A DNA stretch of 64,000 nt, from contig JAFTFL010000005.1 of NCBI GenBank assembly GCA_017449525.1, positions 174,254 through 238,253 of the forward strand, in the 5' to 3' direction. Position numbers and translations under genes: made by a program. The notes beneath the pieces were generated by a model. It saw nothing but the letters and a program-made list of their open reading frames with translations. It searched no databases and was not told where the DNA came from. Below, in pieces: positions 9,678-13,042 of this stretch (position 1 is the first letter of the stretch; the number at the start of each line of letters is the position of its first letter). This DNA is from Bacteroidales bacterium. GTDB taxonomy: Bacteria; Bacteroidota; Bacteroidia; Bacteroidales; P3.

Positions 9678-10052
9678 TTATCCCTTTTCCGAAAACGCCT
9701 TACGATCTCTGACAATGTCACTCAGGTTATCCAAGGCCCACCCCACAAGGCTATGGATGTAGGGCAGGAGCGAGCGGGATCTGTCGGTGAGTTCATACTC
9801 CACGCGAGGTGGAACCTCAGCGTAGGCGTGGCGCAGCACGAGGCCGTCGGCTTCGAGGTCGCGCAGAGTTTGGGTGAGCATTTTTTGCGAGATGTCGGGG
9901 ATAGCGGCTTCGATGGTCTTGAAGCGCATGGGTTGCCCTGTGCCGTCGAGGGTGAGCAGCACGAGGACATACCATTTTTCTCCGATGCGCGACAGCACAT
10001 TGCGCACGGGACATTCTGGGAATAGTGGGTCGAGGACTTGATCCTTTTTCAT
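9678..10052 (-). CDS. HxlR-family winged-helix transcriptional regulator
   Basis: The protein has 124 residues. It contains the HxlR signature: an N-terminal cysteine (C14 in PECPVRNVL), GEKWYVLVLLTL, then RFKTIEAAIPDISQKMLTQT in the recognition helix, LRDLEADGLVLR and a wing YAEVPPRVEYELT. Members sense aldehydes, quinones, hypochlorite or diamide, often through the N-terminal Cys, and regulate nearby redox enzymes. It is the last gene of the radical SAM operon, six bases after the dehydrogenase. It may autoregulate the whole operon, whose promoter region at 13013-13042 would be the place to look for its operator. Confidence 0.88.
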   Translation of the reverse strand: MKKDQVLDPLFPECPVRNVLSRIGEKWYVLVLLTLDGTGQPMRFKTIEAAIPDISQKMLTQTLRDLEADGLVLRHAYAEVPPRVEYELTDRSRSLLPYIHSLVGWALDNLSDIVRDRKAFSEKG

Positions 10053-10058
10053 AACGAT

Positions 10059-11018
10059 TTACATTTTCAGGATTATCTTGCCACCTGCACCACCTTTTTC
10101 CAGAAGCGTGTGGGCTTCCACGATTTCGTCCAACGAAAAAACTTTGCTATATAAGGGCTTGATGTCGGCTTTTGATATCAGCGAGAAGATGCCGTCGATG
10201 GCTTCCTGCGTGGGGAAGTTAGAGAAGAAGCCCGTGAGGAACACACCATTGGGGATATACTTGATGGGATCGAACTGCTGAACGGTGAAAACATTGCCGA
10301 GAATTCCCGTGCTACAGACGTAGCCAGAGTGACTCACGGTGAGCAACGAGTCGCGCAATGTCTTAGGACCAATCAGTTCCAAGACCTTGTTGGGGCGTAC
10401 AGGTAATTGTTGCTCACTGATGCGTTCATCGTCAATGATACAATAGTCAGCACCGATAGCTTTCAACCCCTCAAACGACGACTCGCGACGAGCAGCGGCA
10501 ATGACGGTGGCGCCGATGGCGTTGGCCAGTTGGATGGCAGCCTGGCCTACTGTACTGGTGGCTCCACGGACGAGCATGGTGTCATTTTCATTCAGCAGCA
10601 AACATTCTTTCAGCGAGCCATAGGCCGTGTAGTAGGTTTCAGGGATAGCGGCAAGCGAAAGCCAATCGAGGGCAGAGTCCACCTTGAACACATTCTTCGA
10701 CGGCAGCAGGGCATACTCGGCATAACTACCATTGAATGAGCGCCCCATACCACCCATGAGAGCAACAACCTTGTCTCCCTTATCAAGTCTGGAGTCGGAC
10801 GGATCAGCCACCTCACCGACACACTCAATGCCTGGTATAATGGGGGTATTGATGTAATCGTTGTCGGCTTCGAACTTTCTCAACAGGGCTTCTGAATGGT
10901 TAAGCCCCGCAGCATGTACCTTCACCAGCACCCATCCGGGCCGTACTTTTGGAATAGGTATTTCGCTCACATGCAAGTCTTCTGCTTTGCAACACTTCTC
11001 TAATACGATTGCTTTCAT
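10059..11018 (-). CDS. Zinc-free alcohol dehydrogenase / quinone oxidoreductase-like protein
   Basis: The protein has 319 residues of the medium-chain dehydrogenase/reductase fold. The GroES-like N-domain has AAGLNHSEALLR and the PGIECVGEV stretch. A Rossmann domain carries GATSTVGQAAIQLANAIGA for NADPH. The structural and catalytic zinc cysteines of true alcohol dehydrogenases are absent, as in quinone oxidoreductases and enoyl reductases. The likely reaction is NADPH-dependent reduction of a quinone or conjugated carbonyl. It lies three bases after the ferredoxin-fusion gene and six before hxlR, so it belongs to the same transcript. Whether it acts on the peptide system or protects it from electrophiles is open. 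Confidence 0.85.
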   Translation of the reverse strand: MKAIVLEKCCKAEDLHVSEIPIPKVRPGWVLVKVHAAGLNHSEALLRKFEADNDYINTPIIPGIECVGEVADPSDSRLDKGDKVVALMGGMGRSFNGSYAEYALLPSKNVFKVDSALDWLSLAAIPETYYTAYGSLKECLLLNENDTMLVRGATSTVGQAAIQLANAIGATVIAAARRESSFEGLKAIGADYCIIDDERISEQQLPVRPNKVLELIGPKTLRDSLLTVSHSGYVCSTGILGNVFTVQQFDPIKYIPNGVFLTGFFSNFPTQEAIDGIFSLISKADIKPLYSKVFSLDEIVEAHTLLEKGGAGGKIILKM

Positions 11019-11021
11019 CGC

Positions 11022-11636
11022 TTAATCTAATCTGATGATGGCATCTGCCGGACAATTTTCAAAGCAGTTGCCGCAATGAAGACAATGCTCAAGCTGGATA
11101 TGGAAGGGGGCACTCTCCTCGATACAAGCTTGTGGGCAATTGGCTTGGCAGGTACCACAGCCGATGCATTGTTCGGTAATCTCGAAGCCTTTGCGTTCAG
11201 GCTCTGCATGGCCCATCGTAAAGTAGGCACGGTCAATGGGTCGCACTCCGAGGTTGAAATACTCAATCTGGGCATCGCGGATGACGAAGATGATGCCTAT
11301 ACTGCGGGCGTCGCCGGGATAGACGTTCACCAAGTAGGGCTGTTCCTCGAAGATGACGTTCTTCCAGTGTTCCTGTTCGTCATCGGGTACAGGCTTTGCC
11401 ACAGCCGAGAGGCGAATCATCTCCTTGAACTTCGTCAGCGCATGAATCTGTACATGCCCGTCGTCCATCAGTTGCTGACAGAAGTTCTTACCACGGGCAG
11501 TGTAGAAATAGATAGCATCCGGCTCATAGTGAATAGCCGAGATGCTCCGGGTCTGTGGAAGGCCGCGCTTGTCAACGGTGGCGAATGTCAGTATGCCGAC
11601 ATAGCCAAGTTTCTTGATACAGGTTTCTGCGTCCAT
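11022..11636 (-). CDS. Pyridoxamine-oxidase-like flavin barrel fused to 2[4Fe-4S] ferredoxin
   Basis: The protein has 204 residues. Residues 1-140 resemble the FMN-binding split barrel (GYVGILTFATVDKRGLPQTR, YFYTARGKNF, MIRLSAVAKPV). Residues 150-204 are a bacterial ferredoxin domain with two CxxCxxCxxxCP clusters at C157/C160/C163/C167 and C185/C188/C191/C195. This is a self-contained flavin-to-iron-sulfur electron carrier. It lies two bases after the radical SAM gene. The inference is that it reduces the radical SAM cluster or auxiliary clusters, replacing flavodoxin. Alternatively it is a stand-alone reductase of a small molecule. Confidence 0.85.
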   Translation of the reverse strand: MDAETCIKKLGYVGILTFATVDKRGLPQTRSISAIHYEPDAIYFYTARGKNFCQQLMDDGHVQIHALTKFKEMIRLSAVAKPVPDDEQEHWKNVIFEEQPYLVNVYPGDARSIGIIFVIRDAQIEYFNLGVRPIDRAYFTMGHAEPERKGFEITEQCIGCGTCQANCPQACIEESAPFHIQLEHCLHCGNCFENCPADAIIRLD

Positions 11637-12676: not shown

Positions 12677-12690
12677 TGGGATGCGTGTGA

Positions 12691-12951
12691 TTACTTGTCA
12701 CCTGCTCCGCAAGCAGAACCGCAAGCAGCGGGTTTCTCTTCTTTGTCACCTGCACCGCATGCTGTACCGCAAGCAGCAGGTTTTTCCTCTGCAGGTTTGT
12801 CACCAGCACCACATGCTGAACCACAGGCAGTTGGCTTCTCCTCGGCGGGCTTATCGCCAGCACCGCAGGCTGCACCACAGGCAGTGGGTTTCTCACTCTG
12901 TTTCAACATTCCCTGTGCGCTGTGCGCAAAGTTGCAATCCATTCTTTTCAT
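12691..12951 (-). CDS. Cys-rich tandem-repeat precursor peptide (ACGX-repeat)
   Basis: The protein has 86 residues. A short leader-like start MKRMDCNFAHSAQGMLKQS is followed by four copies of a 15-mer, EKPxACGxACGAGDK (residues 20-34, 38-52, 56-70, 72-86), joined by PAE, PAE and E. Each repeat has two cysteines four apart, each after Ala and before Gly, so nine Cys in all with C6. There is no signal peptide and no double-glycine leader end. It is the first gene after the promoter and directly precedes the radical SAM gene, the usual place for a RiPP substrate. The peptide is low in complexity and easily missed by gene callers. A start at codon 4 (12942) is the alternative. Confidence 0.9.
   Translation of the reverse strand: MKRMDCNFAHSAQGMLKQSEKPTACGAACGAGDKPAEEKPTACGSACGAGDKPAEEKPAACGTACGAGDKEEKPAACGSACGAGDK
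12694..12894 (-). repeat. Tandem DNA repeat encoding the ACGX core
   Basis: There are four units of 45 coding bases, spaced 54, 54 and 48 bases apart, in the 3' part of the precursor gene. Units differ at the codons for Thr/Ala and Ala/Ser/Thr, so they are not freshly duplicated but could still change in number by slippage or recombination. Confidence 0.85.
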
Positions 12952-13012
12952 TGTTCTTCAATATTTTATTAGTTATACTTACTTAATGGTTACTTTACTT
13001 CTATAACCACTG

Positions 13013-13042
13013 CAAAGTTATCACATCTTCTTCAAACAACAA
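13013..13042 (-). promoter_or_regulatory. Promoter of the ACGX peptide operon
   Basis: On the minus strand TAACTTTG (13013-13020) matches the -7 element and TTG (13040-13042) the -33 element, with a 19-base spacer. The start codon of the peptide gene is about 62 bases downstream. The AT-rich region 13043-13258 upstream shows no gene and could hold regulator sites. A second TACTTTG-like box lies near 13056. Confidence 0.65.

Follow-up and report, generated by a model that had tools for sequence, protein, structure and literature searches.

Among described peptide systems, the one closest to the locus reported here is ACGX, whose model names cover a repeat peptide, AcgA (TIGR04341), and a radical SAM/SPASM enzyme, AcgM (TIGR04340), only. 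Related chemistry is better known from other maturases: SbtM (TIGR04082), which modifies a thio(seleno)oxazole ribosomally synthesised and post-translationally modified peptide (RiPP), turns Cys into thiooxazole with the loss of four hydrogens (from part of the review PMC11002830), and PapB, which modifies PapA to the ranthipeptide freyrasin, joins Cys to Asp or Glu in Cys-X3-Asp/Glu motifs, nested links included (sections of PMC9413430), and can run on FMN and NADPH (sections of PMC10470005). Thiooxazole peptides with Cys-Gly repeats are also made by MNIO enzymes; one peptide of an MNIO system, HvfA, carries AEGKCGEGKCG with two Cys per cassette, and metal and oxidative-stress roles have been proposed for such peptides (portions of PMC13097082, of the preprint PMC13419390 and of PMC12538549). 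We analysed a 64,000-nucleotide stretch of a Bacteroidales contig (JAFTFL010000005.1, positions 174,254 to 238,253), hereafter the window, in which a Prevotella-like bacterium encodes an ACGX pair within an operon of five consecutive minus-strand genes, and we found that this pair belongs to a real, recurring module that is probably under stress control.

Both members of the ACGX pair scored far above the curated cut-offs, the 86-residue peptide (12691..12951, minus strand) with 85 bits against 28 for TIGR04341 and, 14 bases further on, the 345-residue enzyme (11639..12676, minus strand) with 544 bits against 400 for TIGR04340, which confirms the resemblance to ACGX proposed in an earlier note on this DNA. 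Downstream on the same strand lie a 204-residue fusion of a PNPOx-like flavin split barrel with a 2[4Fe-4S] ferredoxin (11022..11636; Pfam PNPOx_N and several Fer4 families), a 319-residue quinone/enoyl oxidoreductase of the MDR superfamily (10059..11018; ADH_N and ADH_zinc_N above cut-off), and a 124-residue HxlR (DUF24) regulator (9678..10052; PF01638). Between these open reading frames (ORFs) the intergenic gaps are 14, 2, 3, and 6 bases, and the single-promoter, five-gene cluster that the note described is confirmed. The translation likewise holds the four EKPxACGxACGAGDK repeats, each with two Cys-Gly, and the enzyme has a CX3CX2C motif and seven invariant Cys, which fit the three cluster-binding regions claimed for it. 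As both family models score so far above their cut-offs and the gene set recurs elsewhere, the operon is beyond chance.

A scan with the enzyme gave 197 confirmed loci, of which the best 80 were kept and three from relatives were added, making 83; L091 was omitted because it is the window itself. For the main count we used the 42 loci with at least 2.5 kb on each side, thereby excluding 41/83 with short flanks, and scored families within 3 kb of the enzyme. HxlR regulators were present in 38/42 of these loci, MDR oxidoreductases in 26/42, and nitroreductases in 17/42, with one or the other oxidoreductase in 40/42 and both in 3/42. The flavin-ferredoxin protein, SIR2, and an ABM monooxygenase were each found in 11/42 and a macrodomain in 5/42, and two loci had none of these families. 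Over all 83 loci the corresponding numbers were 61 for HxlR, 46 for MDR, 31 for nitroreductase, 21 for flavin-ferredoxin, 12 each for ABM and SIR2, and 5 for the macrodomain. The HxlR gene was placed either downstream or upstream in the same orientation, or upstream and divergent, and this variation in position indicates that the link outlives rearrangement.

None of the 33 other radical-SAM loci that served as controls (from the same genome and its relatives, with flanks of about 1.5 kb, and with L004 omitted as the window itself) carried any of the seven families, whereas ACGX loci of control-like size had HxlR in 11/17 and an MDR or nitroreductase in 9/17. A second draw on 398 genomes from the phylum of the Desulfosporosinus genome G206, made with the SbtM model, returned nine matches, eight of them with an ACGX peptide; an MDR or nitroreductase accompanied 8/8, HxlR 6/8, and the flavin-ferredoxin protein 4/8, although one of the eight was L075, from G206, once more. 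On these counts we rejected the idea that the last three genes lie there by chance.

The earlier view of the five genes as one complete pathway was thus upheld in part. Asked whether most loci lack the last three genes, the neighbourhoods answer that the regulator and an oxidoreductase recur, so that a bare peptide-enzyme core was rejected for these two, while the flavin-ferredoxin protein is absent from most loci. As a complete unit the set does not hold: HxlR, flavin-ferredoxin, and MDR stand together in 5/42, three of them (L018, L043, and L045) in the order of the window, and the MDR is exchangeable with a nitroreductase.

The chemistry performed by AcgM was approached through its domains and its nearest relatives. 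The radical-SAM motif comprises C14, C18, and C21, with the Pfam Radical_SAM and SPASM domains at residues 10-167 and 255-312; no further domain was found ahead of the radical-SAM barrel. C255, C273, C308, C311, C317, C320, and C338 were invariant in 39 aligned sequences (L036 was dropped from one alignment, its stated range containing a stop), and these seven Cys fit two auxiliary clusters. The predicted fold, at a mean predicted local distance difference test score (pLDDT) of 82, was nearest to SkfB, SuiB, anSME, and PqqE. Among other NCBIfam models AcgM scored best with SbtM at 173 bits, followed by AhbD (119), NirJ (101), the mycofactocin enzyme MftC (75), and PapB (58), bit scores across models of unequal length being a rough guide only. 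We consider it likely that AcgM oxidises the Cys residues of AcgA. By analogy with SbtM, the nearest characterised family, we favour 5-thiooxazole as the product over the thioether that the note thought possible, though tentatively and at somewhat less than an even chance. Since chemistry of the SbtM type removes four hydrogens per Cys, a mass search for a 2 Da loss alone, as had been suggested for the peptide, could mislead.

Three features weigh against the thiooxazole. At 173 bits AcgM falls well below the full-length SbtM cut-off of 350; its residues 4-338 align with positions 199-515 of the 516 in that model only, leaving 1-198 unmatched; and Asp or Glu stands four residues after nearly half of the repeat Cys (190/425), which a thiooxazole does not need. 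No gene above the SbtM cut-off was present in the 398 genomes of the G206 phylum to serve as a true SbtM for comparison, and the peptide gene of the window has no in-frame TGA. One protein that may represent a further family, a radical SAM protein at L191:1522-2910, scored 192 bits with the SbtM model, below the cut-off, and neither an ACGX peptide nor partner genes were seen in the 4 kb of that locus.

The acid at +4 is the basis of a somewhat unlikely alternative, in which the module would still answer to stress but AcgM would be a synthase of the ranthipeptide type, joining the second Cys of each pair to the Asp or Glu four residues on by a CX3D/E thioether, at 2 Da per link, and leaving the first Cys as a free thiol. 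In the 75 distinct peptides (L054 excluded by name, and some peptides cut by contig ends), the residue at +4 of the 425 Cys-Gly sites was Cys in 194 and Asp or Glu in 190, so that 190 of the 231 sites without Cys there carry an acid, a spacing that may parallel the repeated CX3D/E motifs of PapA. PapB provides the precedent for both Cys-X3-Asp/Glu links and flavin-driven turnover (parts of PMC9413430 and PMC10470005), which gives the flavin proteins of the module a possible role and makes flavin/NADPH-driven chemistry plausible for AcgM. In one repeat, at L186, the first Cys of the pair is replaced by Tyr and C-X3-D is retained. However, AcgM scored far below the cut-off of the PapB-type model (NF047865; 58 bits against 340) and far behind SbtM, AhbD, and NirJ; unlike in PapA substrates, 194/425 sites carry Cys rather than an acid at +4; and conservation at position +5 is almost as strong (Lys or Pro 177 times), which means that the acid may reflect plain conservation of the repeat. 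Among the exceptions, 16 Methanobrevibacter sites have Asp at +3, 11 sites lie too near the end of the peptide, and 14 more lack an acid at +3 as well as at +4.

Several individual peptides are described here for completeness. The Methanobrevibacter peptides at the 5' ends of L084, L086, and L088, truncated at contig ends, carry ACGSD repeats with Asp at +3 instead of +4. The genome G208, behind a Lachnospiraceae record, has two ACGX loci (L186:1483-2824 and L188:1459-2862), the first encoding the Tyr-containing peptide. At L054:8001-9366 we found a long-branched AcgM relative without an ACGX peptide; just downstream, an opposite-strand ORF ends in GSSCGSSCG repeats.

Of the redox partners, the flavin-ferredoxin protein matched PNPOx_N just above the cut-off (29.3 against 28.1 bits), its predicted fold matched PNPOx-family structures, and its two CX2CX2CX3C motifs were invariant in 12 aligned sequences; the best solved chain for the MDR protein was the quinone oxidoreductase 4dup. 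On a tree of the enzyme (84 rows, quick method, with states omitting 12/84 rows that have both or neither oxidoreductase), the distribution of MDR and nitroreductase needs 12 changes, at least six of them forced by well-supported branches. That an MDR and a nitroreductase, which belong to unrelated NAD(P)H oxidoreductase families, replace each other suggests one shared job, and thus that the two are interchangeable occupants of a single slot. Identical enzymes occur at L042 and L092 and at L046 and L090, hence these loci are not independent of one another.

Genome profiles point in the same direction. AcgM was above cut-off in 18/190 family genomes. The MDR type (E 1e-40) was found in 11/190, ten of these among the 18 ACGX-positive genomes (Fisher p 3e-11), and the flavin-ferredoxin protein (E 1e-20) in 7/190, all seven ACGX-positive (Fisher p 2e-8). 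In G012 and G074 an MDR-HxlR pair stands on a contig other than that of the enzyme, yet co-occurs with it. Because they are nearly confined to ACGX genomes even when unlinked, the MDR and flavin-ferredoxin proteins look dedicated to ACGX. The eleventh MDR copy, in G183 (L200:1725-2606), contains three stops and is thus broken, which would fit a loss of the module; that genome had no AcgM match, and no ACGX gene was present in 12 kb at that contig end. HxlR was found in 17/18 ACGX-positive genomes (Fisher p 2e-5) and also in 92/190 genomes of the family, and we rejected it as an ACGX-specific gene; in the assembly of the host, the single HxlR match is the gene of the operon.

The regulator resembles the HypR/YodB/HxlR (DUF24) thiol sensors, with which it shares PF01638 (91.9 bits) and an N-terminal Cys. 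This Cys14 was conserved in 62/62 aligned sequences and aligns with Cys14 of YybR/HypR (4a5m), the residue that is S-thioallylated in HypR under allicin stress (part of PMC6943732). The operon is preceded by a promoter of the Bacteroidetes type (13013..13043, minus strand), composed of ATTG at 13043-13040 and TAACTTTG at 13020-13013 with a spacing of 19 bases, a pair that fits the -33/-7 consensus of this group; many homologous promoters likewise contain a TAnnTTTG element. Across the expected transcription start lies a palindrome without assigned strand, TGGTTA-N11-TAACCA (12987..13009), a candidate operator for HxlR. The promoter region gave no Rfam match at gathering scores when checked for structured RNA. 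Downstream of the operon, a plus-strand ORF (8244-8690, 148 residues) encodes a membrane-like protein without a Pfam match.

The window contains the inner 10 letters of the palindrome once, where 0.01 matches would be expected. The stronger case comes from relatives. Of 72 homologous promoters whose start was recognised and which spanned at least 150 bases, 70 remained after removal of near-duplicates, and of these 16 contained GTTAC-N5..20-GTRAC, against 0.2 in shuffles (the largest of 100 gave 2), while GTTAC or GTAAC occurred in 51/70 against 23 expected. The strict palindrome stood 49-52 bases before the start codon in 10/16 promoters, 98-100 bases in five, all of which have a divergent HxlR gene, and 134 bases in L022.

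Against the stress-module reading stand a number of observations. In 9/83 loci all seven neighbour families were missing, and six of these nine loci form one clade. HxlR is frequent in the family, an N-terminal Cys is common in HxlR proteins at large so that 62/62 says little alone, and the profile statistics carry no correction for kinship. The full 12-letter palindrome occurs once in the 2.53 Mb genome, and so does a control read backwards; we abandoned its genome-wide uniqueness as evidence, the control pattern being equally rare. The looser GTTA-N7..20-TAAC was only modestly enriched (14/70 against 5.3), the strict form was confined to 16/70 promoters, the copy in the window, with GTTAT in one arm, is outside those 16, and the promoters are related by descent, which shuffles ignore.

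The HxlR genes outside ACGX loci that are nearest to that of the operon provided a link to protein ADP-ribosylation. In 28 such loci (L157-L184; the best-scoring, not all, with 27/28 in genomes without ACGX), SIR2 was found within about 1.5 kb in 23/28 and a macrodomain in 16/28. These loci, from family genomes, represent an HxlR-macro-SirTM operon in relatives. The SIR2 protein of one ACGX locus matches 5a3a, an entry from the SirTM paper PMC4518038, and in another locus the macrodomain protein matches 8rsi, an entry from the zinc-macrodomain paper PMC11490716; according to part of the former, the SirTM/macrodomain pair is tied to oxidative stress. The word HxlR is absent from the main texts of both papers. 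As counted above, SIR2 and macrodomain genes adjoin a minority of ACGX loci, and neither SirTM nor Zn-macrodomain genes are among the five genes of the operon. The SirTM operons of Gram-positive bacteria, moreover, have GcvH-L and LplA2 (part of PMC4518038), neither of which was recognised among the larger ACGX neighbour families.

These neighbourhoods also allow an improbable explanation in which HxlR and the oxidoreductases form an ordinary detoxification set for quinones and nitro compounds, the ACGX pair sharing their regulon but no pathway. DUF24 regulators of Bacillus subtilis do control flavoenzymes of the nitroreductase and azoreductase types (part of PMC6943732), and the nearest HxlR homologues outside ACGX mostly adjoin SirTM-like genes instead. 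The near confinement of the MDR type (10/11) and the flavin-ferredoxin protein (7/7) to ACGX genomes, unlinked cases included, argues against a general detoxification role.

We consider it likely that the ACGX set is a stress-controlled module, and we propose, at not quite an even chance, that it is an HxlR-controlled module for redox or electrophile stress whose output is an intracellular Cys-repeat peptide modified by a radical SAM enzyme. The proposed trigger is thiol or electrophile stress, which would modify Cys14 of HxlR and make the repressor leave TGGTTA-N11-TAACCA, switching on the operon. AcgA would then be made and its Cys residues oxidised by AcgM to 5-thiooxazole rings, the electrons coming from the flavin-ferredoxin protein or from some other flavin donor. 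The MDR protein, or the nitroreductase in other genomes, may be dedicated to a further NAD(P)-linked redox reaction, with the peptide or its cargo as substrate, and the modified peptide may serve as a buffer for metals, electrophiles, or redox equivalents.

Peptides modified by radical SAM enzymes are often secreted bacteriocins or signals, and this background speaks for such a role here; we nevertheless regard it as very improbable, as none of the neighbour families shared by at least 6/83 loci was recognised as an exporter, a peptidase, or an immunity family (one of them, c10, stayed unidentified). Because neither a protease nor an exporter was recognised among these recurrent neighbours, the peptide is probably retained inside the cell. 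Nor did the same families include a recognised metal gene (c10, again the unidentified one, is lipoprotein-like), which counts against the proposal. That the two-gene core alone is real and the rest chance proximity has the 9/83 loci without any neighbour family in its favour but is almost certainly wrong, given an oxidoreductase in 40/42 loci, 0/33 in the control, 8/8 in the second draw, and the repeated exchange of unrelated oxidoreductases.

A broader and rather unlikely extension of the stress-module reading compares ACGX with the aerobic thiooxazole metallophores. Captophorins, bufferins, and oxazolin depend on an O2-using iron enzyme (MNIO) and a partner protein, whereas ACGX has a radical SAM enzyme; no MNIO (DUF692) enzyme is among the five proteins of the operon, and the likeness between captophorins and ACGX is one of pattern only, without a claim of kinship. 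The groups that carry ACGX are mostly anaerobes. ACGX might accordingly be the oxygen-independent counterpart of these metallophores, a system in which Cys-repeat peptides with multiple heterocycles would be made by radical SAM chemistry and switched on via HxlR in anaerobes, in a regulon that also takes in SirTM/macrodomain ADP-ribosylation, and would act as an intracellular metal or electrophile buffer.

The records behind the loci are from Bacteroidota, Bacillota, Spirochaetota, and Methanobrevibacter, nearly all of them metagenome assemblies. Carriers that can be cultivated include Roseburia sp. 831b and Desulfosporosinus fructosivorans. Four plasmid records encode relatives of 49-56% identity, two of the four being versions of one Methanosphaera plasmid, and the annotation of a Roseburia plasmid gives the order divergent helix-turn-helix regulator, acgA, acgM, nitroreductase, 4Fe-4S protein, protein-ADP-ribose hydrolase, and Sir2. 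On the Methanosphaera plasmid pNP174 (L209:3822-4846) the annotation splits the AcgM relative into two ORFs, one for the radical SAM part and one for the SPASM part. The patchy presence in the family (18/190) together with the plasmids suggests that the ACGX module has spread by transfer. Carriage by phages was not seen: none of 50,697 phage records matched. Literature searches, whose coverage leaves out most subscription papers, found no paper mentioning ACGX, and the main text of a survey of Bacteroidales RiPPs (PMC10352776) has no word starting with ACG.

As far as these searches reach, the composition of the module, the dedicated oxidoreductase that is swapped between families, the candidate operator, and the link to SirTM are new; the note mentioned neither of the last two. 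ACGX, so far a name in annotation databases, gains from the present neighbourhood analysis a regulator, a palindrome that may be its operator, a slot for an oxidoreductase, and a connection to SirTM stress operons. If the thiooxazole assignment is true, anaerobes have a radical route to a metal-binding group for which aerobes use iron oxygenases; if thioethers between Cys and Asp or Glu are formed instead, ACGX would be a large and probably intracellular family of ranthipeptides with an unusual, stress-linked role. The presence of the module across Bacteroidota, Bacillota, Spirochaetota, methanogens, and plasmids suggests that it is worth keeping in the gut and rumen.

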